From contig NC_080423.1 in NCBI RefSeq assembly GCF_029873635.1, positions 108,579,087-108,643,086 of the forward strand: a stretch of DNA of 64,000 nt, read 5' to 3'. Position 1 is the stretch's first letter; every line of letters starts with the position of its first letter. The position numbers were made by a program, and so were the translations under genes. Source of the DNA: Malania oleifera (lineage: Eukaryota; Streptophyta; Magnoliopsida; Santalales; Ximeniaceae). Under the pieces are notes generated by a model that had not been told where the DNA came from, did not search any database, and saw nothing but the letters and a program-made list of their open reading frames with translations. Positions 16,972 to 57,532 of the stretch are shown here, piece after piece.

Positions 16972-17361
16972 TCTTCAAATGAATTAAAAATCAGGTGTTT
17001 CCATATTTATATAGGGGATTTCGTCGATGAGCAGCACCCTTCATCGACGAAATTCAGTCGGCTCCAGAACCCCTCTCGGCTTTTCTTTGTCGACGAAGCC
17101 CTGTGTTCGTTGAAGAAATTATTGAAGCCTTCGTCTACGAAACCCTGTATTCGTCGACGAAATTATTATAGCCTTCGTCGACGAAACCCTGTGTTCGTCG
17201 ACGAATTCAGGCAATCTTAAAAATTACTTTTAACCCCCAAATGCAATGTCCTCAATAAACGCGTAGCGTTCGTCGACGAAGTCTATGGCCTCCTTCTGTT
17301 TCTGTTTCTATTTCTCTCCCTCTTATTACTCAAATTTCCATTTTAAATTCGGGTCGTTATA
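15153..17361 (-). mobile_element. Solo LTR, family D (copy D1)
   Basis: 2209 bp with termini TATAAC...GTTATA and a 5-bp target duplication CTTTT (15148-15152 and 17362-17366). It matches the solo LTR at 32740-39334 along its length in the same orientation and 33996-38468 in reverse. In sense (minus) order it has a palindrome array (about 17282-17020), TATA box (17003-17014), GA/CT-rich leader, splice-donor-like CAGGTAAGGGA (16611-16622), a minisatellite (about 16076-16250) and the hairpin motif (15501-15523). No internal region remains, consistent with LTR-LTR recombination. Confidence 0.85.
17003..17282 (-). promoter_or_regulatory. Palindrome array plus TATA box in solo LTR D1
   Basis: Several copies (about nine, some degenerate) of the palindrome TTCGTCGACGAA lie directly upstream (sense, minus strand) of a TATA box at 17003-17014. 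The spacing and orientation match the arrays in 34081-34274, 39022-39252 and 55772-55990. It is interpreted as the LTR's upstream promoter element. Confidence 0.6.
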
Positions 17362-18050
17362 CTTTTCCTAAAATTCCCATAAGTTCTGAATACCCTAAAT
17401 AGCGTAATAAAGTCTAACTTATTAAACTTACCCCCGATTTAGAGTTGGTGCCCCGGAGCTCCAACTTGAAAATCTGCTCTGGTTAGATTGTAGAGAATTT
17501 CCCCATGAATCTCCCAACAATTTTCGTTCGTTAATTGAGTTTAAGATTTAAGAAAAATTGAAGTAAGAGTGATAATTGAACCTACCCAAGGAGATATGCT
17601 TGCGTCACTCCTACGACAAATCCGCTCCGGTAGATATGTCGATGGCGAAGAATGGAGTTCAACGGTATGTTCGAATTTTCGATCAACCAAATATTGGAGA
17701 AGAAATTGAGGAGAGTGGGAGAGAGGAGATGAGGGAGAGATGAGAGTGAGAGACATGCTAGAGACTCTCTGGATTTCAGAGGGAAATCTTGAAGCTTCAG
17801 GTTACACTTTTCATATATATAATATATAATATATAATAATATTATTATATTATACTTGTATATATATATATATATTATATTAATTAATTATTAATTAATT
17901 AATTATTATTTTTAAAATTTTTTAATTTTAATTTAAGTTTAATTAATTATTTAATTAATAATAATTATTATAATTATAATAATAATTATTATTATTATTA
18001 TTTTGGATCATTCCACTAACCTTGTTTTACTATTTTTTGGGGTTATTATA

Positions 18051-24958: not shown

Positions 24959-25792
24959 TGACTCACTCGAAAAATGAGCAGCTCGGAAGCTATCCCAAGT
25001 ATAGGAGTTCTGTCATGTAATATTAAGCCCAAGGGCTAGATCGTCTCCTCAGGGAATGCGTTTGATCTCAGATTTAAAGTTCTCCCAATCAAAATTAAAT
25101 TGCACTGAATTTAGTTCAGATTCGGGATTTCAAGATTGTTTGATTTCATTCTTAACAAATTAAATAACATGCACATTAAACTCTAAAAACTAGCATTCAT
25201 TACATTAAAAAGCAAAAATAGAAACCCTAGCCGACTTAAGGAGCTACCGGAATACGCACTAATTAAAGATGGTAACTTTGGACACGTAATTAAACATGCA
25301 GGAATGGAAACTCAATCAACACATACGTGCGCAATAAAAATTGGATCTTTAACACGAATCAAGAATGCGAATTAAAATTAAGCTACCAATCGACGTAACC
25401 GATAACAAATCACAATAAAGACTCAAACTTCAATCAGATAAACCCTAACTAAACAAAACACCTTTTTTTCTTTTTTCTTTTTTCTTTTTTTTTATATTTT
25501 CCCTTTTTATTTATTATATATTTTTTTACTTTTTTTTAATAAAAAAACAGAATTTAATTTAAGAGAATGATAAATAAAAACAATCAATTTAAATTCTTCA
25601 AAGCTAATGAGAATGTTAATTAAAAGCAAGATAAATAAATAATGATTCAACTTCAACTTCAGTAAAAAAAAAAAATTAAAATCACATAACCCAATATTCA
25701 AATCCTAAACTACACAATGAACCTTAATAAAAAAATAAAACATTTAATTGCAATTTAAAAAGAAGAGGAAAGAAAAGAAAAGAAAAGAAAAA

Positions 25793-25831
<39 letters not shown>

Positions 25832-26783
25832 CAAAATTCAGCCATGGAGGTCTCAGATGTGTTGCAGAGTGGAGGTAGCCTCGGGTAACTGCTGGATCAG
25901 AGGGGAGCTGCGGCGGCTGGTTGTGTTGCTGGTAGCTGCTGCTAGTGCTGGCTTGGTGTGCTCGGGTTGAAGCTGTGCACAGGTGGCCGAGGCATGCTGC
26001 TGCTGCTGGTGCTCTCGGGTCTGCGCTGGTGTTGGTGTGGCAGCAGGCTGTTGCAAGGAGCTGTGGATAAGATGCTGGCTTGCTGTGATGGAGGTACTCT
26101 AGTGGGCTGAGGAGTGCTGGGGTGGTCTGCGAAGCTGGAGCAGCAGGGAAGGAACAGGGAGAGGGAGAGACTGCAAAAGGTTAAGGAAAACAGGGGAGAA
26201 AGAGAATGAACAAGAGAGAGGACGGAGAAAAGCTAAGGGAAAGAGAAGGGACAGGAGAAGAGAAGAAGAAGAGAAGAAGAAGAAGAAGAAAAGAGAGGAG
26301 AGGAGAGGAGAGCCCTCACGGGGTTGCCTGCGCAAGGAGAAGAAGCAGGGGAATAAAAAGGGGAAATTGGGTGCCCTAGACCCGGATCCAGCCAACTTGA
26401 CCCGAATTGTTGTACTTTTTTTTTTTTTTCATTTTTTTCATTCTCTGTTCATTGCAAATCTGACTCTTCTGGAGCCCGTTTCTCACAAAACTCAAAACAC
26501 GAAAGTTGTAGATAATCCTTTCCTCTTTCTCTAAAAATTTGAATCGTCTCGATCGAAACTTGGACCGAAAAGTTACGCACGAAATACAAACAAGTGTTGG
26601 TTTTGGTTCCCGGGAATTTTCCTGCGACAAAAAAAATACCAAAATTTCATAAATAGTGCAATAAAGTTCAAGAATGATGATTTTGGCACTTTATTAAAAT
26701 ATTAATTTTGGACATTTAATTAAAAATATAAATCGTAAAGTCCGGGTTAAGATGCCCAATTACGCAGTTTTGACGCGTAATCA
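24959..26783 (-). repeat. 3' LTR of the gag-only element
   Basis: 1825 bp, the partner of 30267-32109. It contains a GA microsatellite (about 25797-25828), a GAA/GGA-rich stretch (about 26260-26310) and a segment rich in CTGCTG/GGTGCT words (about 25850-26150). Open frames across these are low-complexity and not counted as genes. Confidence 0.85.
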
Positions 26784-29073: not shown

Positions 29074-30135
29074 TTATCCGACGATGAGCATCTCAGGTTG
29101 GGGAAATTCTTTCTCGCTTCTCGAAGTAGTGGTGGCCTCTGCTGTCTCAAGAAAAACATCGTGTATTTGTTGGTGTGGCTGCTGGTACTCTTGAGGACTA
29201 GGCTGAGGTTCCATGGGCAATTCTTCGTTTTCTAAGATGTCCAACTGCGTGCTTATCGCATTAATAGTATCCCACAATTCATTATTATGATCGACTTGAG
29301 TTTGCATGAATTGTTGAAGCATGTTCGCCATCTGTGTTATGCTATCCTCGAAAAGGTCTGACGATGTACAGCTCGGAGAGATCTGTTGTGGCTGATATTG
29401 AGGCGGAGGGTTGTTTGGGTAGTTTGGTGGCTCGTATACATCTCCACCACCGATTGTGCTGATAGGGCATCCAGTTATGGGCGCCTGAGTGCATCGTGTG
29501 TTGCACTGTGAGACATTGTCAGTTAAGTAATCAAAGAATGATAATACCTGATCTGGATCCTCGCTGACGGGCTCTCCATTAGACATAGTCTGGACAAAAT
29601 ACTTGCAATCAGGGGTAAGAGCACTATAAAAATAATCAGCTAACCTCCATGAGTCAAACCCATGATGTGGACAAGTGCGTAGTAGATCCTTGAATCGCTC
29701 CCAGTAAGCCCCAAATGTCTCATCATCATGTTGCACAAAAGTAAGAATCTGTTCCTGCAAAAATTGAGTTTTCTGTGAGGGACAAAATGTATGCAGGAAT
29801 TCACGCTCCATATCAACCCAATTAATGATAGAGTGAGGTCTCAAGGGATGAAACCAGATCAGTGCCCTATCCTGCAAAGTAGCAAGAAATAAATTCAGTC
29901 GAATAGATTCATTAGTTTTAGCATGAGAGAAAAACATGTTGCAGGTTAATTCAAACTCTGCTAAGTGCTGATATGGGCATTCAGATTCCATCCCATAGAA
30001 CTCGGGTAGCAATGACGTCCTTCCGCGCTGCATCATGAAATTAAACTCGTCATAAGGCAAAACAGTGGAAGAGGATGCAGTGGCATATTCAAGTTGCAAA
30101 AAATCCATTATCGTGCACGGTGCAGGTGCAACCAT
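29074..30135 (-). CDS. Gag-like protein of the Athila-type element
   Basis: A 353-residue open frame in a retrotransposon fossil. Residues about 75-190 show the plant retrotransposon gag fold signature (RLNLFLATLQDRALIWF, then AYWERFKDLLRTCPHHG, the PHHG being common in Athila gag). The C-terminal third is Pro/Gln-rich and shows no zinc knuckle. It lies about 130 bp downstream of the primer-binding site, as expected for gag. It is the only recognisable protein of the element. Confidence 0.8.
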   Translation of the reverse strand: MVAPAPCTIMDFLQLEYATASSSTVLPYDEFNFMMQRGRTSLLPEFYGMESECPYQHLAEFELTCNMFFSHAKTNESIRLNLFLATLQDRALIWFHPLRPHSIINWVDMEREFLHTFCPSQKTQFLQEQILTFVQHDDETFGAYWERFKDLLRTCPHHGFDSWRLADYFYSALTPDCKYFVQTMSNGEPVSEDPDQVLSFFDYLTDNVSQCNTRCTQAPITGCPISTIGGGDVYEPPNYPNNPPPQYQPQQISPSCTSSDLFEDSITQMANMLQQFMQTQVDHNNELWDTINAISTQLDILENEELPMEPQPSPQEYQQPHQQIHDVFLETAEATTTSRSEKEFPQPEMLIVG

Positions 30136-30266
30136 TTTTCAAAACTCAATTTGTTTTTTTTATTTTTTTGTTTTTTTCTTTGTTTTCCTTAAAACTAATA
30201 AAAATGACGGGAAAAATGTAAAATTGAGACTAAGAACGACATTCCCCGGCAACGGCGCCAAAAACT

Positions 30267-32739: not shown

Positions 32740-34080
32740 TGTAATGACCTTAATTTCTTAATATAAAATATAACATAGTAAATGGAAAAGCCAACCCAAA
32801 CCCATGGGTAACGGGGACACTTGTCAATCACAGCGAAAACCTAAGCAGTAATAAGTATAAAATCTCATACATCCAACCATAAAACATAATACCAGAGTTT
32901 ACTATATCATCAAAATACTGTTTCTATATACAACCTCCAAAAAATCAAAATAACACTAGGATCATATAATAAAATCACCCGATCCTAGTTCAACGCTTAC
33001 CCTTCTAGTAGGGAAGCTTCAATCACTCAACGGCGGCCCTGACCCGCCTGTCTCTCTGGGTTTCCTGAAAATCATTTAATGTTCGGGGGTGAGACGCTTT
33101 TCAGTAAGGGAAAATAAACTAAATACAGCTGTGTGGCAACATGAATATTTAAGGCACATATATATATATATATATACAGTACATTTCATAACTCTATAAA
33201 TATTCATCATATCATACTGAATAATCATATACTTTCATATTTGTTAATAAATCGTAACATACATAAAACATTTGTTGTAACTATAATACTGAAAATATAC
33301 CCAAGATGAATAGTTAGCTGATGTCATGTATTACCCCCCCATGACGAGTTGTGCAGCCTGAAGGCGGGACCCGACAATGGTTGGCCGACCACTGCCGAGT
33401 CAAATATGTCTGTAAGTATGATGGGCCCGCCACATCCTGGTCCGAACTGTCAGGTGGATGTCCACACTCTACTGAAAACCATATCGACTATCCATCTCCT
33501 ACCCCCTCGTGGGATGGTTAGCACTAATCTGATCATAAACATTTGATTTATAAGCTACGGTACCGAGCCCCTGAACTGAACTAAACTAACATTCAGGTTC
33601 TAATAACATATAATACATGATATTATAAAGGCCTCGTGCCGATCATTTTCATAAATATGGCCTCGTGCCGAACTCATCCATAAATACGGTCTCGCACCGA
33701 AATCATAAATATGGCTTCGTGTCGAAATCATAAATAAACACGGCCTCGCGCCGAAACCATACATAAATACGCATATACTCGGCCTCGCGCCGGATAAATT
33801 TTAGGTATATATATACATTCTGAAAATAAATCAATTATCACGTATTCATCAAAATTGTCATAACATAACGTATCTTTTCATAATACCTGAAAACATGCTT
33901 TGCTCATAAAATCTTTCATATCATAGAACATTTTTCGTAACATAATATTCATGCCACACGTGTGCTGTACAAAACCATACTTCATATTCTAAAATTGTAA
34001 CGACTCGAATTTAAAATGAAATTTAAATAATAAAGAAAGAGAAATGGAAGCCGGAAACAGAAGGAAGCAGTCGACTAGCG

Positions 34081-34274
34081 TTCATCGACGACATTGAACT
34101 TTGGAAGGAATAACGGAAAGGGGATCAGCAGGGCTTCATCGACGAAGATTGAATTTCGTCGACGAAGAAATACCAAGAGGGGGGTTTGAGCAGACTGAAT
34201 TTCGTCGACGAAATTAATAAGAATTTGTCGACGAAGGACGGGCTCATCGACGAAATTCCCTATTCTATAAATAT
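34081..34274 (+). promoter_or_regulatory. Palindrome array plus TATA box in solo LTR E
   Basis: About seven TTCGTCGACGAA-like words end within about 10 bp of CTATAAATAT (34265-34274). A CT-rich leader follows. The arrangement is equivalent to the other family D/E/G LTRs. Confidence 0.6.
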
Positions 34275-35395
34275 GAAAATCCGGATTTTAAGCTTCTTCA
34301 AAAAGCTAACTCTCTTCTCTCTCTCTCCCCCCCCCCTTCGGTTCCCTCTCTTTCTTTTGTTGATTTCGGGCCAAATTTTCGCCGGATCGACAATCCGAAG
34401 TCACCACGACGCTCTTGGGGAAGTTCTCTCCAAATCTGCCGGAGCGGATCGTTAGTGAAAGTAAGTTGGGAATCATCCCTAAGTTGAGTTAAGGCTTTTT
34501 AAACCAAATTTGACTTTATGGCAGTTATAGAAAATGTTGTACTTTTAAAAATACTGAACTTTAATACTGGGAGTTTTCATTTTCAGGGGTGTTGAGTTGA
34601 GAACCCTGCGGGTGTGAGGAAGATTTTCTTAGGGGTTTTTCAGGAATTAGGTAAGGGGATAAACTAAGCTAGTTCTGTTTTGAGAAAATGCATGTATATA
34701 TATATAACATCTGGTTTCAGGAAAAATAATTATATGTATTTATATGATTTATATTTGAAAAATACTGTAAAAATGATCGTATGATGAATATGTGAAAATC
34801 CGTTAGTGTGGCATGAGTATAAAATGTATGGGAAACTGTTTTCTAGGAATGTGATTATGATATAGGTTTTATGATGGAAAACCGGCGTACGGGCCGAGAT
34901 ATTTATATATATATATGATTTGCCGGCGCACGGGCCGTGCTATGTGGATGAGATTTGCCAGCATACGGGCTGTGCTATGTGATTTGCCGGCGTACGGGCC
35001 GAGCTATGTGATTTTCTGGCGTACGGGCCGAGCTATGTGATTTGCCAGCGTACGGGCTATGCTATGTGATTTGCCGGCATACGGGCCGAGCTATGATAAA
35101 ATGTGAAATACCGGCGTATAGGCCAATGATTTTTATGACACATGTATATATATATATATATACAAAATGATATAATTAATGTTATGAGATATCCATGTAT
35201 CACAGTTTCAGTATATATTATATGATATTAGAACTTGGTTGGCTTGGTTTAGGCTAGCACTTGCACGGTACCGTTGCTATGTGTCCATGGTCTTTGTGAT
35301 CATGATATTTGTGTTAACGCCGCTATACGAAGTGGTGTGAGATTGGATGGTCGATGTGGCTTTTAAGAAGTGTGTGTGATCACCCCTGGTGTACG

Positions 35396-37733
35396 TGTAA
35401 CACCCCGACCCCGGGGGGGCCTGAGATATTAACTTTTTACTACTGATTTACAGCGGAAGTAAAAATAAACTCAACTTTTATTAAACCAGAGCGCTAATTA
35501 TCCATATTACAATCATTTATTTCAAAAGAAGGAAAATTACACAAACATAAATATCTGAAACCATACTAATATTTCTAATCAATCTTTATTTTTCTAATCC
35601 CCACCCGCATGCTTGCTAAGCCTGATTCCCGACATGTCCTTCAGAGTTATCTGAAATAAAATATGATTGGGGTGAGACGACGCTCAGTAAGTAAATAAGA
35701 TTATTATTAGTGTGTGGCCAAAATGAGTTTTTAAAGAATTTCGTAAAACAATAATGAATACTATAACTTCAAGACTGCTTTTAGAATAAGCATAAATTTA
35801 AAAATTTCAGCATAAAACTTTTGTTATCAATTTCAACAGTAAATTTTTAAATCATATACTATAACTGTTAAATTAAACTTTTAACTTTAAAACTGTAAAA
35901 ATATTTAATGATAAACATACATATACTTTTCCTTATACGTTTTCCTTAGATCGTCATATAAGCACCAAAATGATCATTTTCACGTAAACTTACACTTTTC
36001 CTTCAAATCATTAGTAACTTTGTACACGTAATTAAATATGTATAAACATATATTGTAAAAACCCACCCTTAGGCCTGTTTGCCGTAAGTCATGTTTACCC
36101 CCATGACTGGGTTGTGCGGTCCGAAGACTGGACTTAGCTGGCTGGCCGACCAAACTAAATCAACGTACGTAAACTTTAAGTGAGATTTTCCTTATTAAGT
36201 CCTGGTCCGGAACCAGGTGTGCACTCAGGAGAAATCCACTAACATAAATAACCACTCTGTAAACAGTGTGGGTGCACTCTGATCCGTATAAACTTTAAGC
36301 TGCGGTACCGAGCATTTGTAACTTTGAACTTTCGTTGCCATAAGGGGTTTTAAAATCATCTTATTATAATTTATGCAATTTAAAATAATATCGTAAAAAT
36401 CTCATCTTTACTCATATTTTCATAAAAAATGCAACGTAAAAATAAACTCATGCCACACAATTTTTGTATTAAAAATATATATAATTTTATTTTTGAATAG
36501 AAAGAAATGCTGAAAATTTACCCGAGGGGATTGGAACATTTCTTAACCCAAAAATAGATGCAAGTATATTAAAGATAGAACTGGTATAATTAAATATGCG
36601 TAAAAATAAACTCATGAAAATTTTGTGGAAGTAATTAACATAATTAAAATTTACGTACAAAATAAACTCGGGTATGAATTTAAAATAAAAAGAAACTAAC
36701 ATAATCAAAATTTACTTACCTTCTTTTTTTACCGTGTGCTACGAACACAATAATTATCTTTAAGAAATGAGATCGGAAAAAGTGGGTGATTGAGAATTTA
36801 TTCAAAAATTCTCTCTCCACCACAAATTCTTTCACTCACTAATCCTTCTCTTCCTTAGAAAATTGTTGTGAAAAATGAAGGTTGAGAGCTCCCTATTTAT
36901 AGGAAAATTTTAGGGAAGAAATAGAATTTATAAAAGTGTGGGGAGATGGGTGAAATTATAATTTTTTTTTTTTAAATTAAAGAATGGGCAAGGGATGGGC
37001 AAGGTATGGGTTGAGTATGGGATGGGGATGGAGGCCATGTGGGAGTGCTTGCCACCATTCCCATTAAATAAATTTTTAATTAACTACTTACCTAATTAAT
37101 TAATCAATTAGTTAATTAATTATTTTATTATTTTATTATTTTTCTTAATCATTATTGTCACTATTATTATCATTGTTATTACTTTTAAACTATTTTTAGT
37201 ATTTATTTATTTTATTATTTATTTTTGAATAAGAATTAAATTTAAATTTTGAAAACTCATGTGGGCCCCACATGGTCTTGTGGGCCCCACACAACTTCGA
37301 GACCCGAATGAATCCTACGTAACTCGAATAACTCTTATACGATTTTATGCATCCTACATAGCTTTGAGACTCGTGTAAACCTCCATACGGTTTTAGGACT
37401 CATGTGGGCCCCACACAGTCTTGTGGGCCCCGCATATGATACATATATTATTATTATTTTATCATATATTTCTACAAATTATGTCAGTCAAAACATTATT
37501 TTATGTACTTATTTACGTATATAAACAGTGTCTACCCTGTTTATCCTATGAAATTCCATTTTGACCAGGCCGACCTCCAGGGAGCGACTGAGCCGCAATG
37601 GTCTCTGAGCACTCGCTTAGACAAGGTCTTTCTTAGGAATCAAACATGGAATCAAGGATCCTAACAGAGAAACACTTTCTTTTTTAATACTAACTATTAT
37701 TATTATTATTCATTTTTTTTTTGGGTTATTACA
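35396..37733 (-). mobile_element. Solo LTR, gypsy-like (copy F), inserted in copy E
   Basis: 2338 bp, TGTAACACCCCGACCCC...GGGTTATTACA, with target duplication GTACG (35391-35395, 37734-37738). The termini resemble the Tekay/Del-like LTR at 22121-24696, but most of the body differs. The hairpin motif in variant form lies at 35669-35692. This is the innermost level: copia fossil, then D2, then E, then F. Confidence 0.85.
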
Positions 37734-39021
37734 GTACGGACCAGGTTAGGCAGGCCCATCGGACTTACAGACTATATGTTTGACTTGGTAGTGGTCGGCC
37801 AACCATTGTTAAGTCCCGCCTTCGGGCCACACAACGTAGTCATGTGAGGGTAATACATGACAACAGCCAGCTAACCTACCAGTGATATTTTTATGTTATT
37901 ATTATGATATGAGATGAGATATGCTTATGAAATGTAGTATGTTCTGCCATGTTTTGATATACATATGTTTTCCCAGATTTGATAAACAGTACTGAATATG
38001 ATATGTATGGTATATGTAGAACACGGTATACTCATGTTGCCACACACTAGTATTAGTTTATTTCCCTTACTGAGAGGTGTCTCACCCTTTAATTTTATAA
38101 ACTTTTCAGGAGCCCCTGATAGGAGAGCGGGAAAAGCCCCGCTGACCTAGTGCTGGATATTTGCCCTCTTTGAAGGGTAAGTTTCTTTTTGTAAGGATAG
38201 TTAGATTTTGTGGGGAATGTCCCTAGGTCTGATTTTTGGGTTGTATATACTGAGATACAGTGTTTGTAGTAGCTCTGGTGTTGTAATGCATATTATAATA
38301 AGATGTATATGATTATATGCTTTCTGCTGCTTAGGCTTCTGCTATATATATTCTGATTTATCAATGGTACCTACGGGTTTAGGTGGATGGTGATCTGCTG
38401 AATTTGAATGTATAATTTGATTTTATTATTATAAAAAAAAATGTGTGGAAAATAAGCAGGTCGTGACAAAAATCATAATTTTCTGGCATCTCATATATAC
38501 ATATACATTTTAACATCATAGCAGTATTTTCCCAAACGTACATTTCATCCGTGATAAACAAATATAACATAGGCTTTTGTGAAAATAAATTTACTCATAA
38601 TTAATAATAATTGGTATGGAAAATAATTATTTTAGTTTATTCCTTTACCTGGCTATTGAGAAAACCCCTAAAATATCCTGGTCTACCCCCCGTAGGATTT
38701 CCTGATCATTACCCTGAAATTGAAAATTCTCAGTATTAAATTTCAGTATTTTCATACGTACATCATTTTCTATAACTACCATAGGAAAAAAATTAGCTTA
38801 AAAAGCCTTACCTCAACTTAGGGATGATTTCCAACTTGTTTTCACCAACGATCCGCTCCGATAGATTTGGAGAGAACTTCCCCAGGAGCGTCGTGGTGAC
38901 TTCAAAACATCAAACAGGCGTAAATCTAGCTCAAAATCAATGAAAGAGAGAGAGAGAGGGCCAAAGGGGAGAGAGAAAGGAAAGAGTTTTCTTCTTAATG
39001 AAGTTAAAAATTGGATTTTTC

Positions 39022-39252
39022 ATATTTATAGAACCGAATTCGTCGACGAGTCACGTCATTCATCGACGAATCCTTCATTAATTTCGTCAACGAAATTCAG
39101 TCCTTTGTCGATGAAATTAAGTCGGTTCAAACCTTTCTCGGTATTTCTTCTTTGACGAAATTCAGTCTTCGTCGACGAATCCCCTGTATTCGTCAACGAA
39201 GCCCTGATGATTCCCTTTCTTTTATCCTTCCAAAGTGCAATGTCGTTGACGA
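39022..39252 (-). promoter_or_regulatory. Palindrome array plus TATA box in solo LTR D2
   Basis: About nine TTCGTCGACGAA-like words, then (sense minus) a TATA box at 39022-39031. Same order as copy D1. Confidence 0.6.
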
Positions 39253-39334
39253 ACGTGAACTTCCTCCTTCTGTTACTGTTTTCATTTTCCTTCCCCTTTA
39301 TTATTTAAATTCCATTTTTATTCGGGTTGTCACA

Positions 39335-39985: not shown

Positions 39986-40527
39986 TGTTGTTTATGGTGT
40001 GACTCTTATACTTCGAGAGTTTATAAACAAAGGGAAAATCATATGGATGTGGTCTTGGTGCAAGGCAGCAGCAAAGACTTGTCAACGAGTGGACATAATC
40101 GTCGACGAGTGGCCTTCTTTGGCTCGTCAATGAGTGCCCTATTCTCGTTGACAAGTGGTCGCTGGGTTACGAGAAAGAATTTAAATTTTGAATTTGAATG
40201 TTGGAGTGGTTGGGTATTCGGAGGGAAACCTCCGAGGGGTGGTTATATATGTCATTCTGGGCATATTTCAGCATATAAGAGAGTAAGAGAGGGTGATAAA
40301 AGGAGAGAAGATCATTATATTGTGAGACTTTAATTTTCATAGTGAATCTCTTGCCGGTTGCTCCCGTGGATGTAGGCTTTGCCGAACCACAGAATTCCTG
40401 GTATCGTTGCACTTATCTTTATTCTCTTTATCTTGCTATGGTTGTGAAATGTTTTCTGTTTATCACCATTTTGTTTGTTGTAAGTATGTATGTGTAATCC
40501 TTTATACAATGTTCATTCCGCTGCGCA
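39986..40527 (+). repeat. 3' LTR of the large copia fossil
   Basis: 542 bp, the partner of 12219-12742, with the same terminal words and a slightly richer set of CGTCGACGAG/TCGTCAACGAG words at about 40079-40165. TATA-like GCATATAAGAG lies near 40271. Confidence 0.85.
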
Positions 40528-40917
40528 TTGTTGGGAGAGGCCGTCCTTATTTTTCACAACATTTCACTTCTTTACTATGCTTATTTTTCCTTTTAGAAGA
40601 AGATATTTTTTTTTATTTAATAAAAGATAAAACAAATATATAATTTCTTAATAAATTCTAGTCACATATCATCCTTAATATTTTGTCCATTTTAAAAATA
40701 ATGTAGACCAAAAAAGAGTTTATTCGTTCGAATAAATTATTATTCAAAGGTTTGTTGCTACAATAAAAATTCAATTATATTAACATTAGTGTGAGGGACC
40801 TCTCTAGCACATATGTAAATTACTACGTAAATAAATTAGAAGGAAGGTGGCAAAGAAAGAAATAGGGCAAATGCCCTAACTCTATATCTTGAGGGGTCTA
40901 ATTTTTTTAGGATCCTT

Positions 40918-47397: not shown

Positions 47398-49773
47398 TCA
47401 GCACCCACGTCCATCCATATTTCTTCCTAGAGTCCCTTCAGCAATTTCCAGCATATCTTTGACTTCAGTTTCCTTCATATTCATCATCATCATTTTTGCC
47501 CCAAACTTCACAGCATCTTCCATCAACCCTTTCTCATTGGGTGTTTCTTTAGGATCTGTCAACATATCATTCTTAGGTTTTTCTGCATTCTTCACCATCT
47601 CTTCATCCTTACCTTCTGTCAGTACCTGAAGAAGTTCTAAAGGTGTGGATGCTGGGTCAAGCTCCCGGCAACCTGTGGGAACATTTTGAGCCTCTTGACC
47701 TGTAAGAAAGTATGATGGAACCTGATGAGAGAACCGAAACAACTCTTCTTTTGGAATTGTCTTGACTTGCTTCGGGTCCAAATGCCGGTGAAATACTGTC
47801 CTAAAACCAGCAACTTTAACCAATGGAGTGACAGTCACACCTAGCTCCTCAGTATAATCTTCAAGCACTTCCACCATGTCATATTTATGAATCACCTCAT
47901 CAGGGGTGAGTTCATTCCAATCAGGGGACCAATTCCTATAAAGAGCCCAAACATCTCCCTTACTGGGATATATTTGAATGACCCCCCTCGCTCCTTTTGC
48001 CCATTTAACCATGTGAGAGAAAGAATTAAGAGAGTTGTTAATTTCATGCTTGCCGATCCTAAAATCTCCACTAGTTTTGGGAAAACCAGATCCAATCCAG
48101 TTTATTGGGGCCAGCTCATTGTTGCTTTTGGAATTAAGCCAACTAATTCGCATCTTGAATGGTTTACGAGAAACAACACCATGAATCATAGCATAATAAC
48201 GAGGCATCCCATCATCATCATCATAAGCAGCCCAAACCTGGTTACCACTGAATGACTTTTCAGTACGATCCTTGTCAAAATCATGAAAGTCTGGATCTGG
48301 AACATTCATTGCTACAGTTTCAGTACCCTTTGAATCAGAATCAACACCAGCAATGGCAGGAGAAGACTTCTTAGCATGCACTTTATTCTCAGCAACACCA
48401 AGCTGCCTATGCTTGTTTGCACCATTTTTTACACCATTTATAGTAGCTTCTTGTTTCCCTTTCTCCCTCTCTTTCTCCTCTTTACATGAATTCTTTCGTG
48501 CAGCAGCTGTGCTCCATTCATTCAGCTTCTTGCGAATTTCCGTCCTAGCCTTCTCTATCAGCATTTTACGAACCTCTGGCTGTGACAGCTCCTTTGTAGT
48601 AATAGACCTGGCACTTCCAGGAACATTGATCCTTGCAGTTTCAGAACTGCTCTTTTGAGAAGCAGGCACACTTCCCATGCCAACCACTCCATGTCTCATG
48701 CCCATTTGATTTGGCATCTCTCTTCCAATACCATGCATTGCATTTTCATCCATACGCCTTTTCTTCATTCGCCTTTCTCCTCCCAATACAGTAGAACCAG
48801 TTATCCGTGCTTCCTCACGCTCTCTCTTCAATTTCTCATAGGCTGGCTGAACAGCTTGAGCAGCTGAGGAAGTGGAGGCCGGTGCACTTCCACCTCCACC
48901 TGATTTAGAAATAGAATCTGACTGAAAATTTGCCCGATTAAATGAGTCAAAACCAGAAAACCCTGTTCCTCCTGCACTTGGGGCAGCAGCCTGTTTCATT
49001 CTTGGAGTTTCAGAGTTCCGGTTTGTCACATGGGAGCTTGAATTCTGCCGTTGCTGGTATGTAGTCCAAGGAGTGGATGACTTGCGTCCATTTAAAGGTG
49101 GGGGTGGCGTCTCTACGGCCAAAAAGGGCTCATGGCAATTAGGGCAAAGAAGAGTGTGGTTGAGATAATTTATAAGATATTCATACTGCATTTTGCAGCG
49201 ATTGCATACGGTCCAAAATGTATTTGGTTTTGATGGACGGGGAACCGCCGGAGTGGGCTTTGGATGAGCAGCACTCTTTTGATCCCTTGTGTTCAAATTA
49301 GAACCATTGGTGAAATTATGGAAACCATTCCTACCGGCTGGCACTGATGAATTCCCAGTAGGAATTTTCTGATATAAATCCCTCCGCCTCATGTTATATG
49401 CACTTCTTTTGGCTTTATCGGACAACAAACTCCAAGCCTCTGATAAAATTTTAAATGCGCCATCAGCCCCGATCAATTTGTTTTTATCAGGATGAAGAGT
49501 GAGAGCCAGCTTCCTGTATTGTTTCCTTATCGTATCATCGTCAGAATAGGGATCTACATTGAGGACCCCATACCAATCAATCTCACCATTAATTTTCTTC
49601 TCAGCTGAGGCGTACACATCAAGTGTTGCCAGTAATTGAGGAAGACCCTCAAGGTCAGCATACAAGCTTTGGGCCTTCAAAGCAAATTTTTTTGCTCCAG
49701 CAATGTCCTTCTCTGTCATCTTCTTCATTGCAATATCCTTAGCCCTGATGGCTTCATCTTTATTACACTCCAT
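47398..49773 (-). CDS. DnaJ domain protein with C-terminal DUF3444 (single coding exon)
   Basis: A plant-specific type III J-domain protein. The J domain lets such proteins stimulate Hsp70 ATPase; the family is usually nuclear or cytosolic, with poorly known clients. The start ATG is placed at 49773 (MECNKDEA); a codon further upstream in frame is GTG, not ATG. About 791 residues, usual for the family. J domain about 64-130 with HPD near 94-96. A zinc-ribbon-like pair CNRC...CPNC lies at about 189-212. A basic RRMKKRRM segment near 333-340 is a likely nuclear signal, and a charged linker follows to about 490. DUF3444 spans about 500-715 (VWAAYDDDDGMPRYYA, GDVWALYRNW, FSHQVPSY). The coding region is intronless, with a 5' UTR intron inferred at 49895-51544. 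It appears intact. The exact orthologue was not determined. Confidence 0.95.
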   Translation of the reverse strand: MECNKDEAIRAKDIAMKKMTEKDIAGAKKFALKAQSLYADLEGLPQLLATLDVYASAEKKINGEIDWYGVLNVDPYSDDDTIRKQYRKLALTLHPDKNKLIGADGAFKILSEAWSLLSDKAKRSAYNMRRRDLYQKIPTGNSSVPAGRNGFHNFTNGSNLNTRDQKSAAHPKPTPAVPRPSKPNTFWTVCNRCKMQYEYLINYLNHTLLCPNCHEPFLAVETPPPPLNGRKSSTPWTTYQQRQNSSSHVTNRNSETPRMKQAAAPSAGGTGFSGFDSFNRANFQSDSISKSGGGGSAPASTSSAAQAVQPAYEKLKREREEARITGSTVLGGERRMKKRRMDENAMHGIGREMPNQMGMRHGVVGMGSVPASQKSSSETARINVPGSARSITTKELSQPEVRKMLIEKARTEIRKKLNEWSTAAARKNSCKEEKEREKGKQEATINGVKNGANKHRQLGVAENKVHAKKSSPAIAGVDSDSKGTETVAMNVPDPDFHDFDKDRTEKSFSGNQVWAAYDDDDGMPRYYAMIHGVVSRKPFKMRISWLNSKSNNELAPINWIGSGFPKTSGDFRIGKHEINNSLNSFSHMVKWAKGARGVIQIYPSKGDVWALYRNWSPDWNELTPDEVIHKYDMVEVLEDYTEELGVTVTPLVKVAGFRTVFHRHLDPKQVKTIPKEELFRFSHQVPSYFLTGQEAQNVPTGCRELDPASTPLELLQVLTEGKDEEMVKNAEKPKNDMLTDPKETPNEKGLMEDAVKFGAKMMMMNMKETEVKDMLEIAEGTLGRNMDGRGC

Positions 49774-51700
49774 CTTCACTATGTTTGCTGCTCTCTCCTT
49801 CTAACAGCTAACAGTATCTTTTTTTTTGACAACAGGTAACCAACATATAAGCAAGAAGTCAACCACCAACATCCGGTTCTACAATCTGCAATTCCTGCAT
49901 GCAACATAGAATAAAAATAACTTTAGCAGCGAAGCAGTCAAGTCCATAAAAAAAAAAAATTACCAAAATAAGAAAACTTTTCCAGCAACGTGGAAATAAA
50001 CAAAGCAAGCGAGGTTAGCGACAAATGGCAAGGTAATGAATGGAAAATTATGAGTAACCGACAAATACGAGTTAATGCTTCTTCAAAACAAGCAACCCCA
50101 AACTTTTGTGCACTTGATCCAAAAGCCTTCTTGGTGATTGAACCGAAAAACGACAAAAGAAAACACGAATTTCAACAGTTTCTAGAACCAAAATTTAAGT
50201 AACAGAACAGAATCGACAATTAAAAGTTGACAAATGTAATACAGCACTCCCAGAGCTGACCATTTGTGCAAAATTACAAGGTTAGTGCAAAACGGTAAGG
50301 TCCTGATGATGAAAAATTGTGAGAAAATTATGAGTATACGACAAATAAGAGTTAATGCTTTTTCAAATCAAGTAACTCCAAACATTTGAACACATATAAT
50401 CTGAAGCACTCTTAATGACCGAAGCAAAAACCCGCAAAAAAAAAAAAAAAAAACACAAAATTCAACAACTTGATGCACTGAAAAAGTGAAAATTTAAAAT
50501 AGCACAATAGAATGGACAATTTAATTAAAACAAGAACCGATTTCCCGCAGCTGATCATTCATGCCAAATTACGAGGCAAGAGTCAAATGGGAACGTCATG
50601 AATGATGAAATATTACAAGTAAATTATGAGCAACCGACAAACACTAGTTAATGCTTCTTCAAATCAAGCAACTGTAAATATTTGAACACTTCTGATCAGA
50701 AAATCTTATTAATGACTGAACTGAAAAAGAATCCACAAATCAACATTCAAAACTCAACAATTTTAAGCACCAAAATTTTAAACGGCAGAATATAATTGAC
50801 AATAAAAACTTGCACATAAATACAGTGCTCGCAGAAGCTAATCATTCATGCAAAATCATGAGGCTAGTGCTAAATGGTAAGGTCATGAATGATGAAAATT
50901 TGCAAGTAAATTATGAAAAACCGACAAACACGGGTTAATGTTTCTTCAAATCCTGTAACTCCAAACTTTTGATCAACTTTGATCTGAAAGTCCTCCAAAT
51001 GACTGCACTGAAAAACCCACGAAAGTAATCAACAATTTTTTTAAAAAAAAAAAAAAAAAAACCAGAATAGAATTGACAATGAAAAGTTCCACAAACATCA
51101 ACAAAGTGCTCCCAAAGTTGATCATTCGTGCCAAATTACAAGGAGCATGAAACAAACAACAGTAACTGATAACATAAAAACCTAAAGATCTCAGCTCTAG
51201 AAAAATTTCCTTTATCAGATACTGCAATGAAAAAAAACATGGTCGAAAAGAGTATCATCCCTCATTCAAATTTGAGGCAGACGAAGAGTCACAGATACCC
51301 ACTACACAGATTAACTTCAAACATTCAAATCAAACAAAACCCTTCACCATGGATCTAAAAGAGCTGAGATTTTGAACAAAACAGTGCAGATTTCACGTTC
51401 CAAGTACTCAAATTCTGCGATTTGACTGAAATCCTCATAACCTTAAAACGTCAATATTCTCAGTAAATAAACAATCTACAACAATATAATAAACCCGAAA
51501 ATTCATATTCCGAACTGAGCAGAAAGAAAGACACGAAAAATTACCTATTTCCGAGAATGTGAATCGCAGAGACAGCACTGATAAATTTGCATGAGAATTT
51601 GAGTTTGCCCTGCTTTACGACCGAGGTCATCAAACATCTCCCAAACGGGATCCTTTTTGTGAAAATCCCTCGAAACCTAAATCAAATTCTGAAGAAAATT
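49774..51700 (-). promoter_or_regulatory. 5' UTR, leader intron and promoter side of the DnaJ gene
   Basis: A leader intron is inferred. The donor AG|GTAA is at 51545/51544 after GCGATTCACATTCTCGGAAAT, and the acceptor is at 49896-49895 after a pyrimidine-rich tract ending TTGCATGCAG. That leaves about 120 bp of leader before the ATG. The intron would be about 1.65 kb, mostly the 285-bp tandem repeat. An AT-rich stretch with a TATA-like CATATATATTTAA lies near 51695-51710. Splice sites are by eye. Confidence 0.45.
50000..51150. repeat. Tandem array of an about 285-bp unit in the DnaJ leader intron
   Basis: Four copies are marked by CGACAAA-(T/C)A-GAGTTAATGCTTCTTC-like words starting at 50059, 50339, 50635 and 50922 (periods 280, 296, 287). 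Each is followed by AACTCCAAAC-TTTGA, an A-rich run, AGAAT-GACAAT and a CATTCATGCAAAATTACAAGG-like block. Copies differ by many substitutions and small indels. No coding potential. Confidence 0.85.
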
Positions 51701-51719: not shown

Positions 51720-53360
51720 TAAATAAAAAAAAAAAAAAAGCAGCCCTGGTTTTCTGTATTTTAAGTATTTTTTTAGGGCATAACCTATCTTTTTGTATAG
51801 GGTAAAACCCTAACCATGGTTATTTTTTAACTCTGGTTAACAATGCTGAATATTGTGGTGTGGTTAGCTAAATATGGAAAATTTAATTAGTGGGTGGATT
51901 TTTCTGAAAACCATAATTCAAAATTTTTTTGACCTCTCTTTTTTTCTTTTTTGTAAAATTTGAAATGGGTTTAATCTATAAAATGTGGGCCATTTTTTGA
52001 GTGCAAAATCAAATAAATCTGCCCAATCACATTTTTGGAAATTAAATTTTGTAATAATTTTTTTGGCTGTAGTGGCAAAAATTTTCAATTTTTAATCAGT
52101 ATTTACAATTTTTTGCAAAAGAAAAATATTTTTTTATTTAAAAATCCTTTTTTTAAGACACCCTTTGTGAATGTAAAGCTTCACAAGAGTTAAAGTCCTT
52201 AATGTGCAAACAACAAGCCAAAACAGCTTGGGTTTTTGCTTCCTTTGACTTGACCTAAGGATAATATCCTAAGCATGGTTACCTGCCTTGTTTAACTTGG
52301 AATGGGATTCCATCATAAGTTACCTTATATGGTTATGTTCCATGGGAAAAGGAATTCTCTGGGAATTCTAGAACTTAAATTCTACCTTTTTGCTGATAGC
52401 AAAATGGAAAATCTTCTCTCCTTGCATTTCTCCTCTTTCTCTTCTTGTGTAGTCCATTCCAAAATGTGATAGAAGAGAAGAGAGTTACACAAAGGGTGTC
52501 AATTCCATTGGAGGACATTCCAACGTGTGAGAACGATGGCTTGGTACCTGGTCATATAATCATTAAGTGCATTTCCTCAAAACCTTCTCTGATCTCTACC
52601 ACTGTTCAACTGAGAAATGGCTATTTTGGCAACAATGTAGATTATGCACTGGCCTAAATTAAAGGTTGTGGTAGAAAATAAACCACCATAAAAACACCCT
52701 GCCAAGTGCCCACTGCCAGAGCAAAAAACAGGTGACTATTGTCATTTAGCGATGTATCGAGTGTATCGCCATAGTTTATTTAGTGGGTCCCATGCATGGT
52801 TAGTGGTGGACCTTGTGTGGGACCCACTGATTGTATGGCGGTGAAATGTCACGGGACCCATTAAATAAATGGTAGAGTTCTATGGACGCCTTTCAGTTTG
52901 CATTCGAAAACCTTCATACTCCTTCATTTCTTGATTTTAAATGCCAAAAGTCAAAAACATGTAGATGCATTTGAACAAATCCACAATACCATGGTTGCAG
53001 GGCTTGCAAAACCACTGCCAAAATGTTCACAGGACTCATAATATGTTCTGTATAAACATTTATGCTCACCCTTAAAGGGGATGAATGATCTCGTGTAGGA
53101 TCAGAAGAAAACTTTAGTTAGTAATTGGGGCAATGAGGGAGAGTAATGCTGTGGATAAATGTAACAACCAAACCAGAAGGCAGCCTATAAATAAATCAAT
53201 GTTTTAAAAAATGTTCACTTTTTCATTATATTTGTATAGAGCTGAGTTGCAGACAATGATTAAAGAAGAATTTGTGGGTGAAAGTAACCCATAGGGAAGA
53301 AAAAAGAACTAATGGGTTTGAGAAGAGGCCTATCCCAAAAGAAGAAGAGAAGGTCCAAAA
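51720..53360. other. Spacer between the DnaJ and MFS genes with a small foldback
   Basis: No gene seen. It contains an inverted repeat with arms 52775-52794 and 52850-52869 (TTTATTTAGTGGGTCCCATG and its near complement), with a second inverted GGGTCCCA/TGGGACCC pair inside, as in a short foldback element. It runs into the MFS 3' UTR on the right. Confidence 0.5.
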
Positions 53361-53364
53361 CATG

Positions 53365-53680
53365 AGATCAGACAAATCCAACCATGATTTGAGTATCCAT
53401 CAGCTCCAAAGTTTACAGATACAAATATAGATACTGCCCTTTGTTGATGGTAATGGAAGCCAAGAAGCCATCTTCTGAATGGTAAGGGAATTTTTAGGCA
53501 AACTGCAACTGAAAACAAGAGACCAGACAAATCCAACCATAATTGGTCTATCCATGAGCTCCAAAGTTTACATATACCAATATAAATACTGCCCTTTGTT
53601 GATGGCAATGGAAGCTGTGACGCCATCTTCTGAATGGTAAGCAGGTTTTTGAGCAAACTACAACTGAAAACAACCTTTTT
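53365..53680. repeat. 155-bp tandem duplication in the MFS gene 3' UTR
   Basis: Two copies with a 155-bp period (AGACAAATCCAACCAT starts at 53370 and 53525). They share CTGCCCTTTGTTGATGG and CCATCTTCTGAATGG. They lie directly downstream of the MFS stop codon on the transcribed strand. The open frame spanning them is a by-product of the duplication. Confidence 0.85.
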
Positions 53681-53700: not shown

Positions 53701-55256
53701 TCAAGTGCGAGACTTTCCATAGAGCTGTGCATAGACACTCTTCGTCCTAAAAACAACAATCGAACTCATTACAACTGCAATAATGCAGAGTCCTGAGAGG
53801 ATCCAGCAAGTGAGGGAGTAGCATATGGAACCATCACAAGAAAGAGATTCATCCCCCACAAGAGTAGTCAAATTTGGTTGAAGGAGGCCAGCTTGTTTTG
53901 CCGCATAATAATCATATATGCCACTAGCAATGACGCCGGAGAATAATAGAGAACCAACAGGACTTGCCAGTGTAAGGAAGTTATAGAGCGCGCCAAAACT
54001 TTTCAAGCCAAAAAGCTCAGAAGCTGCTGCTGGAACAATTGCCCAATGAGCTCCATATCCGAGTCCTGTCAAAACGGTCACAACATAAATTTGCCCTGGC
54101 CAGCCCATAGCATAGTAGAAGAATCCAATTGCCATTATGACCTGAACCACAGCCATTGCCACTGGTCTAGGATAGCTATAATTTCTGGTATCAAAAATAA
54201 GAAAATGAAAAAAAGAAAAAGAAAAAGTGTGAGAATGTTGTCTAAATTACATCCCAAAATAAGGATATATAAATAAATAAATAAAGAGACCAAAGCTGTG
54301 GCTCATGAAGAAAGTGAACTACACCTTATGATGATCTCAGAGAAGTAGCCGCCGCCAACACGGCCAAGAAAATTCCAAATGCTGATCATGGATACATATA
54401 TATTTGTGTTGGCATACCCCAGGGATTGACATATTTGACCCAGGTTATCGATAACCGTCAAACCTGACCCAGAAGCCAGCACAAGGGAGAGAAATATAAG
54501 CCAAAAATCTGCCTTTATTAATGCCTGCATTAGGGTGAAATCTTCCCCCCTGCGAGGTCCTTTTCTCCGCTTGACTCTTACTGCTCCTTCTGCAGCTGCT
54601 TGAAAAAGTTTAGTTTGCAACTGAGCAATTCGTTTTTTCCTTTCTGATGCAGGAAGTGAGTCTACGTCTGTGGGTTTCTCATCTTCAACTTCGCTAAGAA
54701 TGACCTCATTTGCATCCTTCTCAGATGTACCTAATTCTTGATTCTGAAGCTTAAGAAGAAGGCTCTCCTCAACCAGAGGCTTTGGTTCCAAGAAGAAAAC
54801 CAATAGAATGGGAATGATAACTGGAAGCAAAATGAAAATGATTAATAGAACTGTGAACAATGTGACAAGGTTTTGGTTTAAATCAATGAGATCCTCAAGC
54901 AACAAAACCCCCAGCAAGTAGGCTGCTAGAATAAGGCAAATGGTATAAATAAATAAAAAGCTTGAATCGTCAGATGGCCTAACTTGTCGGTGACCTCCCA
55001 CAGGTCTAACAATGAACATTAGAGAAATAACTACCATTGATGGGCCAACCGCAAACATGAAAATCAGCACTGCTTTGTCAGGGGTATTGATCATTGCATA
55101 AATCTGAGTCAAAATTGCACCACTCAACCCAGCAAAGCCCTTCAGGATACCAACAACAGGCCCTCGGCTTTTTGGGAAGTTCTGCACGCAGGACACCAGA
55201 GATCCAGTGTTGAAGTAGGTCTCACCATTTGTTCCCACAAATATACAAATGCACAG
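53701..55256 (-). CDS. Nodulin-like / NFD4-like MFS transporter, exons 2 and 3 (5' exon not in window)
   Basis: A multi-span membrane protein of the plant Nodulin-like/MFS family; substrates are mostly unknown. Exon 2 is 55256-54325: acceptor TGTCTTGCAG before CTGTGCATT, donor ATAAG|GTGT. Exon 3 is 54184-53701: acceptor TTGATACCAG, then ...NYSYPRPVAMA, stop after YGKSRT. The joined frame is open for 471 residues. Conserved family words include FVGTNGETYFNTG, CVQNFPKSRGPVVGILKG, GLSGAI, the charged cytosolic loop (about residues 157-265), DNLGQI, WNFLGRVGGGYFSE, GYGAHWAIVPA and ELFGLKSFGALYNF. Relatives have about 110 further N-terminal residues in a first exon; no such exon is visible up to 64000. 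It is therefore either a gene with an intron over 8.7 kb or a 5'-truncated copy. The visible part looks intact. Confidence 0.92.
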
Positions 55257-55692
55257 CTGCAAGACATAATCCAGTTAAAATTCAAGATGATATGATAATG
55301 AATTATTTAAAGCTCCTGCGCATTAATTATTGAATAAACTTATTTAATGACAGCCAAAATTTCACAGGTTGTGAATTGTCAAATGAAGTTAAATTACACA
55401 CAAGGAAACAAGCATGAACATGTTATGCTCAACATTAGAGGAGAAAATAAGACAGAAAATTTTTTGCAAGCTTCTGAAAGCATGCAGCTTTGTGTTAAAT
55501 ATGAATTAGCAATAACCATCTATAGGGAGAAATGTCCTACATGGCTGTGCATTGTAGGATTAAATAAAAATGCATCCATTTACATCTACATGCTATGCCA
55601 ATCCAATAACAATAAAGAAATCATTAAAATTATTTTCTTCAATGCTCAATCTTCAAGATTAAGAGGTAAGAGGTGTAGCCTGAGGCTTCTCG
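55257..55692 (-). other. Start of the long intron upstream of MFS exon 2
   Basis: Non-coding AT-rich sequence between the exon 2 acceptor and the solo LTR at 55693. No exon-like frame with MFS similarity was seen. Confidence 0.5.
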
Positions 55693-57532
55693 TGCAGAAA
55701 CCCAAATCTAGAAAATAAGAGAAATAAATAAGAAAAGAAGGAAGAAAAATTTAAAGGGGCAAAGCAGCAGGATTCGTCGACGAATCCCTTGTTTTCATCG
55801 ACGAATTCCCTTGTGTGGTTCATCGACGAAGTTCAGGAATCGTTGGCGAAGAAATACCGAGCGACAAGAAAATTCAGGATCAAGGTTTGTCGACGAACTC
55901 TTTCTTTCGTTGACGAATGTCCTTTTGCAATTCGTCGACGAAGGCACCATTTCGTCGACGAATGCGACCGGGTCAACAGCCTATAAATAGCTTTGGAATT
56001 ACTTCTTGATTAAGAAATCAAAATATCTCTCTCTCTCTCTAACCCGCGGCCCCACCCCTTCTCTCTACGATTTCTCGCCATTCGTCACCTGATTCAACGA
56101 TCAGAAGTTACCACGAGAATCTGTGGGAAATTCTCTACAAGTCTAGCGAAACAGATTGCTGAACGGTGTCTTTCCAGACATCACTCCAAATTTGAGGAAA
56201 GGGTAGAAATGGACTATCTGCCTAGCATGTAACTAGTCAAATGGGGTATATGGGTTTGGGGATGTTTAATGGTTGCTAATCTGGGATTTGAGTTGATTAA
56301 ACTGGGGAAAATGTAGTTTTAGGATTTTGGGCTCTGTATCGCCGTAGGGTGGGCTTTAGGAGCGTCGTAGGAACTCTCTCAGTAAACAGGTAAGGGGAAT
56401 AAATTATATCAGTTTTTTCTAATTTCTACCGGTTAAAAAGAGGTTTATACTTATATGTATATGTTTACGGCTTTTGTTTCAAATTCCAACCATTTAAAAA
56501 GGAGTATTTGAGCTTAGGGTTAGGTTCTGGGTTATTACCTTCAAAACTAGCCAATTAAACTTGAATACGAGACCATAGGATTAAAGTAGTGAGTTTTCTG
56601 AACGTATTGATTGAGTTAGAATATTAGTTTGGATTATCTTATAGATTATGTAAAGAATCAAAGCAAGTAGGGCTGACTAACTCAGTTTTGTAATGTACAA
56701 TTTAAATCCTTAAATTGTGTCATGAGATTGACTTTTATTAATGAAATGGATATTGTGGCTATGCTGTATTTGCCTGTTTGGTTGATGTGATATGTATATT
56801 ACTAAGAAATGAGTGGTTGTGCTTTGTAATTGTGGGACTCTGTTGTGATATATTTGTGAGACTCTATTGTAATATTAGGACTCTATCATGATGTACATAT
56901 GAGAATGATGGGAAGGGATGCTTAGTACACTGGGCACCATGTGTTGAAAAGTAATCGGGCACCATGCGTTGAGAAGGAATTTGGGCATCATGTGAAATGA
57001 AGTGTTTATGCATTATTACCTGTATGTGCATGCAAATATTGAGGTTTGCTTTATGGTAAATATGTGTGTACCGTCTGCTTGTACCTGTTTAGTTGTTATT
57101 GTTTATCATACAATTATATTTTGGATATATACATTAAAACTCATATGACACACTGTTATACTTTATTCGTCCTTACTGAGAAGTGTCTCACCCTAGCAAT
57201 ATATTAACTTTTCAGGTCCTTCTGGTGATCGAGCTTAGCAAGCTCCGGGGCAGGGTTTAGTTATTGTGGTTGTAAGTTAATGTGAGATACTGGAATATAT
57301 AGGTTTATGTTTTAAATGCTGGTATGTAATATGGACAAATGGAAGTATCTTTTTGGTTGTGTAATATGAATTAGGGAATACTTCTTTTTGGGATTATATA
57401 TAGTACTCTGGCATTATTGTTGAGAATGTATTATTATTATTTTCGCTGTGTGTATGAATAATATGGTATCAAAGATGGATTTTTTGGACACATAACACCT
57501 CGGGCCTCGCTTGGCGGGTACAGGGCGTTACA
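55693..57532 (+). mobile_element. Solo LTR, family D-like (copy G)
   Basis: 1840 bp, TGCAGAAACCC...GGCGTTACA, target duplication TCTCG (55688-55692, 57533-57537). Sense features in order: palindrome array (55772-55968), TATA CTATAAATAG (55981-55990), CT-rich leader, CAGGTAAGGGGAAT (56387-56400), the hairpin motif (57171-57193). No internal region remains. It lies in the probable first intron of the MFS gene. Confidence 0.8.
55772..55990 (+). promoter_or_regulatory. Palindrome array plus TATA box in solo LTR G
   Basis: About eight TTCGTCGACGAA-like words, then CTATAAATAG at 55981-55990 and a CT run. Same layout as in copies D1, D2 and E. Confidence 0.6.

Follow-up and report, generated by a model that had tools for sequence, protein, structure and literature searches.

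The unique 3′ (U3) regions of several long terminal repeats (LTRs) in a 64,000-nucleotide stretch of the Malania oleifera genome (contig NC_080423.1, positions 108,579,087 to 108,643,086; this whole stretch is referred to as the window) carry arrays of a 12-bp palindrome that share one polar layout in LTRs of both gypsy and copia type. We consider it probable, judging from sequence comparisons, that these palindromes are operator sites of a single composite U3 enhancer module that both superfamilies acquired via transfer. The full module spans about 186 bp and reads P-8-P-12-P-8-P, a spacer of 32-39 nt that opens near the motif RARATACCGAG, and again P-8-P-12-P-8-P (P, palindrome; numerals, spacer lengths in nt). 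From the end of the module to the TATA box, the distance in LTRs of gypsy type is mostly either some 8 or some 19 bp; in those of copia type, it is some 90 bp. Each palindrome would be bound by a dimer of a putative sequence-specific host protein, paired sites 20-21 bp apart would cooperate, and a second factor bound to the central motif may give the module its polarity; the assembled module would help recruit the transcription machinery at the nearby TATA box and thereby drive transcription, and the copies would since have decayed mostly via CpG transitions. Because the module is found in two superfamilies whose proteins differ, we prefer a host factor to one encoded by the elements; of the plant factor classes considered (bZIP, WRKY, HSF, AP2/ERF, TCP, NAC, and ARF), none is known to bind TCGTCGACGA.

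The array-bearing LTRs of the window are four solo LTRs, A through D, and the two LTRs of a copia-type fossil (target-site duplications, TSDs, were identified by eye; spacers are in nt):

15153..17361, minus strand: solo LTR A, gypsy-type; TSD CTTTT; begins TA, not TG
17020..17280, minus strand: array of LTR A, 9 sites; spacers in LTR sense 63, 8, 12, 8, 12, 8, 34, 8; TATA 6 bp on
32740..39334, minus strand: solo LTR B, gypsy-type; TSD ATCTT; split by LTR C
39039..39253, minus strand: array of LTR B, 8 sites; spacers 41, 9, 8, 32, 9, 12, 8; TATA 8 bp on
33996..38468, plus strand: solo LTR C, gypsy-type; TSD AAAAT; within B, split by LTR E (about 35397-37733)
34081..34254, plus strand: array of LTR C, 6 sites; spacers 42, 8, 34, 11, 7; TATA 11 bp on
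55693..57532, plus strand: solo LTR D, gypsy-type, diverged family; TSD TCTCG; begins TGCAG
55773..55962, plus strand: array of LTR D, 8 sites, canonical layout; spacers 9, 13, 8, 35, 8, 13, 8; TATA 19 bp on
55851..55885, plus strand: central spacer of LTR D; opens GAAATACCGAG
12219..12752 (end approximate), plus strand: 5′ LTR of the copia-type fossil
12311..12371, plus strand: shortened array of the copia 5′ LTR; palindrome, 37-nt central spacer (GAGATACCGAG...), palindrome
39986..40555 (end approximate), plus strand: 3′ LTR of the copia-type fossil; purine-rich tract before the LTR (by eye)
40078..40155, plus strand: shortened array of the copia 3′ LTR; 4 palindromes, spacers 8, 13, 9

An earlier, sequence-only reading of the window had given coordinates for these LTRs that proved correct. 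LTRs A-D show the 5-bp TSDs listed above and short terminal inverted ends, the latter imperfect in A (TA) and D (TGCAG); the TA start of LTR A has a reported parallel in tomato TARE1 (PMC3701649). LTR B is inserted into a relic that resembles a copia reverse transcriptase (RT; named by eye), and a 44-bp tandem unit makes up part of array A. Within the window, exact TCGTCGACGA occurs 13 times, where shuffled sequences lead one to expect 0.00, and TTCGTCGACGAA at ≤2 mismatches occurs 34 times, compared to 1.15 expected; the core of the array sites is also the only 10-mer palindrome, other than those of A and T, that exceeds 3 copies. When both outer-base forms (T..A and C..G) are considered, six U3 regions with a summed length of 1,273 bp hold 36 of the 38 sites at ≤2 mismatches. 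Only two isolated sites, at 12085 and 18069, lie beyond the six U3 regions, with 11 extra sites at 3 mismatches, and the remaining LTR families of the window therefore show no arrays in scans at ≤2 and 3 mismatches; the sequence-only reading had listed copies F, H, and the Tekay/Del-like LTR as free of the motif. The same reading had credited each solo LTR with roughly seven to nine copies, which agrees with the counts at ≤3 mismatches for A (9), B (8), and D (8) and not with that for C (6); the copia 5′ and 3′ LTRs hold 2 and 4 sites, the last of which lies 87 and 88 bp upstream of TATA, respectively, and the placement of the core in both of them by that reading was right. Distances of 6 to 19 bp from the last palindrome to TATA and a CT-rich leader downstream of TATA, both as described before, are found in all four solo LTRs. 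Spacing is far from random, as 16 of 31 spacers measure 7-9 nt and 7 measure 11-13 nt, while in 20,000 trials of random placement over the same spans the first class averaged 3.26 and the two classes combined 5.96, and no trial attained the values observed. Finally, a single spacer of 32-37 nt that opens with GAAATACC, GAAAAGCC, or GAGATACC is present in five of the six array LTRs, the copia 3′ LTR being the one that lacks it.

Module sites are abundant far beyond the window. In the 1,494,336,490-base assembly that contains it, exact TTCGTCGACGAA occurs 37,861 times and exact CTCGTCGACGAG 29,470 times, compared to 67 and 36 occurrences, respectively, of the same letters reversed; TTCGACGTCGAA, a palindrome of the same composition that also has three CpGs, occurs 7 times (its reverse, 36 times). 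The junction CGACGARRARATACCGAG is found 6,528 times and its reversed control 0 times. To characterize individual arrays, 100 listed exact TTCGTCGACGAA places, all from one region (the first 2.5 Mb of contig C1), were grouped into 61 clusters, of which 60 were fetched; some of these loci are probably both LTRs of one element. At least three sites, defined at ≤3 mismatches, are present in 59 of the 60 clusters. Among 423 spacers, 215 are of 7-9 nt, 115 of 12-13 nt, and 64 of 30-41 nt (394 in these three classes), with 24 longer and 2 below 7 nt; merely 3 have lengths of 10-11 or 14-29 nt. The common layout is P8P12P8P-34-P8P12P8P, i.e., two palindrome quartets around a central spacer, and all eight slots are filled in 29 of 51 anchored non-copia arrays. 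When the sampled loci are grouped by the similarity of their leaders, 47 of the 60 fall with LTRs A-D, 3 with the copia LTRs, and 10 with neither cluster. Leaders were compared in place of wide flanks, which had lumped 93 of 96 loci, probably through nested elements; 10 loci, several of which were wrongly oriented, remained ungrouped in the leader comparison. Simple scaling from this one-region sample leads us to infer some 20,000 or more such arrays in the genome.

The sampled arrays are polar. RARATACCGAG stands near the opening of one 30-41 nt spacer in 53 of the 53 arrays that have such a spacer, with 7-11 of its 11 positions matched, compared to 0-5 on the opposite strand; as these 53 arrays were oriented by the motif itself, this strand contrast is partly built in, and the TATA test is independent of the orientation motif. 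In that test, TATA lies ≤25 bp downstream in 33 of the 53 motif-oriented arrays and ≤25 bp from the mirrored end in none, and the gypsy LTR-start motif lies upstream in 37 of the 53, with 1 of 53 for the downstream control. When all 60 arrays are included, the corresponding numbers are 37 and 0 for TATA and 40 and 1 for the LTR start; for the 7 arrays that have no central spacer, orientation was chosen partly by TATA, and the 53-array tests leave them out. The first site is found 61-104 bp downstream of the LTR-start motif in the sample, so that the repeats lie where those of a repeated U3 enhancer would: in U3, upstream of TATA, and near the LTR start. The 37 close TATA distances fall into two classes, 7-11 bp (27 arrays) and 18-20 bp (10 arrays), which are about one helical turn apart and make direct contact with the TATA complex testable. 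Two observations fit a promoter-proximal role less well. A TATA-like word within 25 bp is missing from 23 of the 60 sampled arrays, which decay or a misplaced array end may explain in some cases, and the copia arrays lie some 90 bp from TATA; the close distance seen in gypsy LTRs is therefore not required.

LTRs A-D are solo, and their superfamily was assigned through two other elements of the genome that have a Ty3/gypsy-type pol. One (L195), between presumed LTRs L158 and L159, matches RVT_1 (1.8e-21) and rve (1.5e-7, just below the cut-off), with RT before integrase; the other (L194), between presumed LTRs L160 and L161, matches RVT_1 (1.1e-14) and RT_RNaseH (1.9e-14). LTRs A-D fall into the leader cluster of the LTRs of these two elements, which includes 55 of the 96 loci compared. 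A TCTCACC-TTTTCAGG block in R/U5 (the repeat and unique 5′ regions) is common to LTRs A-D and the neighbouring families E and F, and the interior of F has a weak match to gypsy gag (E 0.001, below cut-off). Element G (24959-32065) of the window has an LTR pair that is about 92% identical and a gag open reading frame (ORF) at 29074-30138 on the minus strand (Retrotrans_gag, E 1.1e-19); the window site scan found no palindrome array in it.

For the copia-type LTRs, at least 45 relatives were matched in the genome from 40 scored of 3,858 candidates. Among 30 such loci read, 9 have five sites with a spacer of 37-40 nt followed by spacers of 8, 13, and 9 nt, 14 have four sites spaced 8 (or 9), 13, and 9 nt with the long spacer absent, and 7 have other shortened forms; the 5′ and 3′ arrays of the window fossil look as if each had been derived from the five-site form by deletion. 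Eight sites are present at one locus (L149) that was placed in the family by LTR similarity alone (69% over 316 bp, compared with the copia LTR of the window), and six at L148 (67% over 298 bp), the presumed partner of L149. Two interiors of the family match RVT_2 (E 0.0035 and 0.004), one of them also Pol_BBD (4e-5), all below Pfam curated cut-offs, and the pieces of the window fossil gave no relevant Pfam match; from these sub-cut-off matches, the purine-rich tract, and peptide motifs together, we tentatively take the fossil and its family to be Ty1/copia. The fossil (12219-40555) is apparently one element split by nested F (containing LTR A), G, and LTR B (containing C, which holds E), and pieces of its interior seem to persist between these insertions. 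Among the 45 copia LTR matches, five neighbouring pairs are spaced only about 2.3-2.4 kb apart, and the two interiors that were read contain broken coding pieces (loci considered: L102-L131, L192, and L193); given this spacing and these broken pieces, the copia family may be non-autonomous.

The sequence-only reading had left a choice between convergence and exchange of promoter modules, and the comparison of arrays favours exchange. Copia and gypsy arrays agree in the order of spacer classes, in the central motif, and in the slot and strand of that motif, and some similarity also persists in the spacers themselves. None of 5000 shuffles aligns as well as the copia central spacer does with that of LTR D; in the 13-nt spacer, CAACCTTCT.TGG of gypsy loci L160 and L161 compares with TGGCCTTCTCTGG of copia locus L116; and the copia-gypsy group mean is above shuffles for two of three short spacers (i.e., the 13-nt and the last). 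We infer that the module is common to gypsy and copia through transfer between the superfamilies, a preference that is based on the shared whole layout more than on any single spacer. Convergence, in which each superfamily would have evolved the array on its own under a shared requirement of the host factors for this spacing and this central motif, is unlikely, and we judge transfer to be about four times likelier. Layout and motif could indeed both be functional, and the usual outer bases differ (T..A in the window gypsy arrays, C..G in copia), though sampled gypsy arrays are mixed; convergence would, however, have had to arrive at an identical order of spacer classes over five to eight sites, with the same motif in the same slot and on the same strand, besides the similarities to LTR D and between 13-nt spacers. 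Several spacer comparisons count against transfer and give convergence some room. With the motif removed, the best gypsy tail (that of D, in a set of 59 that includes LTR B twice, as wB and L102) is equalled by 9 of 1000 shuffles, a modest result; the first 8-nt spacer shows no copia-gypsy excess over shuffles, and spacers taken one by one compare poorly across the superfamilies; a search of the whole window with shuffled copia spacers reached 32 at the best of 30, compared to 34 observed; and among the four window gypsy spacers D alone matches copia well, with A, B, and C matching poorly. In whole-U3 alignments with sites masked, the number of shuffles, out of 1000, that did as well was 13 for D and between 44 and 183 for A, B, and C; outside its sites, the copia 3′ LTR showed no signal (72 to 251 of 1000). 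Transfer may have gone in either direction; among gypsy spacers, those of the LTR D type come nearest to the copia central spacer.

Palindromes are 87% alike in array D and 81% alike in array B, and the corresponding 7-9 nt spacers are 25% and 29% alike; array A, with its tandem 44-bp unit, has spacers that partly resemble one another (48%). When CpG transitions are set aside, all six pairs of LTRs A-D have fewer mismatches in the palindromes than in the rest (Fisher p 2e-6 to 1e-12), in tests that lean on palindrome-anchored alignment and on the mismatch limit. Each site has three CpGs, and CpG transitions account for 27 of the 38 substitutions counted within the window and, for the sample, for 340 of 410 in the core. 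The spacers have diverged and the palindromes have been retained apart from CpG decay, a decay that methylated, silenced LTRs would be expected to show; four presumed LTR pairs of the sample are 81-90% identical, and these copies therefore look old. Two points temper this picture, namely that the definition of sites at ≤3 mismatches caps their divergence and that a comparison of the two copia LTRs with each other gives the palindromes no significant advantage (p 0.095).

The CpG content of the sites raises the question of whether they could instead be a target of repression, i.e., CpG-rich operators that recruit or exclude the methylation machinery and, when bound, block the close TATA box. 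Besides the three CpGs per site and the prevalence of CpG transitions, as methylated sites would show, the ratio of observed to expected CpG in the first 670-760 bp of LTRs A-D drops from 1.10-1.20 to 0.60-0.83 once the palindromes are omitted. An element gains nothing from many copies of a pure silencing target, however, and the same decay is expected once an enhancer is silenced, and we regard this explanation as quite improbable. Slightly less credit still is due to a role in RNA, where neighbouring palindromes would pair in U3 RNA as 12-bp hairpins with 8-nt loops and serve dimerisation, packaging, or 3′ end formation. RNA folds of U3 from D and B are stable (z -3.2 and -3.1, with none of 100 shuffles as stable), which speaks for this role and against an enhancer, and the outer bases 1 and 12′ of pairs 8 nt apart are coupled more strongly (phi 0.40) than those within one palindrome (0.23); but any repeated palindrome folds likewise, loop-closing bases are hardly coupled (phi 0.09) and slot-wise coupling is mixed, and an array that ends at TATA is not predicted by an RNA function. 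That the arrays are a passive, functionless minisatellite in U3 is scarcely credible, as head-to-tail units including spacers are absent from D and B, whose spacers are about as unlike as random DNA next to palindromes that are alike, and as the polar layout recurs across the sample, even though copy number varies and array A includes the 44-bp tandem unit. The enhancer module remains the preferred explanation; of the earlier proposal of a promoter-associated binding array, the promoter module is what position, polarity, fixed spacing, and selective conservation in the genome sample support.

Repeated enhancer boxes in U3 are known from plant LTR retrotransposons, including Tnt1 and Tto1, and the arrays described here likewise consist of repeated cis-elements in U3 upstream of TATA. 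They differ from the Tnt1 and Tto1 boxes in their 12-bp palindrome, recurring eight-site layout, and central motif, and in being common to gypsy and copia LTRs, with tens of thousands of sites genome-wide. In the Tnt1 superfamily, U3 is described (PMC1838419) as modular and as evolving more rapidly than the coding sequence; the modular evolution treated there is within related copia elements, whereas the module reported here spans two superfamilies. In the open-access literature searched, no account of the palindrome or of the module was found: 33 papers contain TCGTCGACGA, none of those listed being concerned with LTRs and none combining it with retrotransposons, CTCGTCGACGAG is in no paper, and four further module stretches are in 2 papers of unrelated fields. 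Matches in viral contigs were taken as coding, as close pair spacings are multiples of three in all but 7 of 90 loci and most of the 90 are GC-rich; no array resembling those of the window was noticed among these 90 loci, and one further viral match is GC-rich too. Contigs of GTDB gave 2 bacterial matches.

Other features of the window include three minus-strand ORFs, at 10067-10969, 47398-49800, and 53701-55274, whose products we take to resemble an NF-YC, a DnaJ-domain protein, and an MFS/nodulin-like transporter, respectively, and which are likely host genes among the elements. A 155-bp tandem duplication (53357-53673; 86% identity) adjoins the transporter-like ORF, and a 23-bp tandem repeat (GTAAAACAGCTGAAAGATGCTGG) of about 7 copies lies at 58938-59101. 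LTR E (about 35397-37733, minus strand) contains three TGTGGGCCCCACA sites, which start at 37260, 37279, and 37403, and a close variant of them near 37422; these sites (37260-37434) form two pairs 19 bp apart in U3. The TCP14 motif, given in PMC10391996 as GTGGGNCCCAC, is matched by these TGTGGGCCCCACA sites. Like the sites of the arrays, this TCP-type motif is palindromic and occurs in closely spaced pairs in the U3 of an LTR; unlike them, it has another sequence, belongs to another LTR family, and lies several hundred bp from TATA.

More broadly, the module could be a self-contained cassette, two operator quartets around a polar motif, that crossed between gypsy and copia elements and that drives, or drove in the past, a large part of the expansion of LTRs in this genome via a single host factor for which all these elements compete; we put this forward tentatively, as an idea with a little less in its favour than against it. 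If true, it would mean that unrelated retrotransposons trade promoter modules and that the evolution of transcriptional control is partly uncoupled from that of the coding lineages. A large share of the LTRs of the genome could then have their common key in one dimeric plant factor, and loss of that factor, or alteration of the sites it binds, would reveal how a genome opens to, or closes against, its elements.

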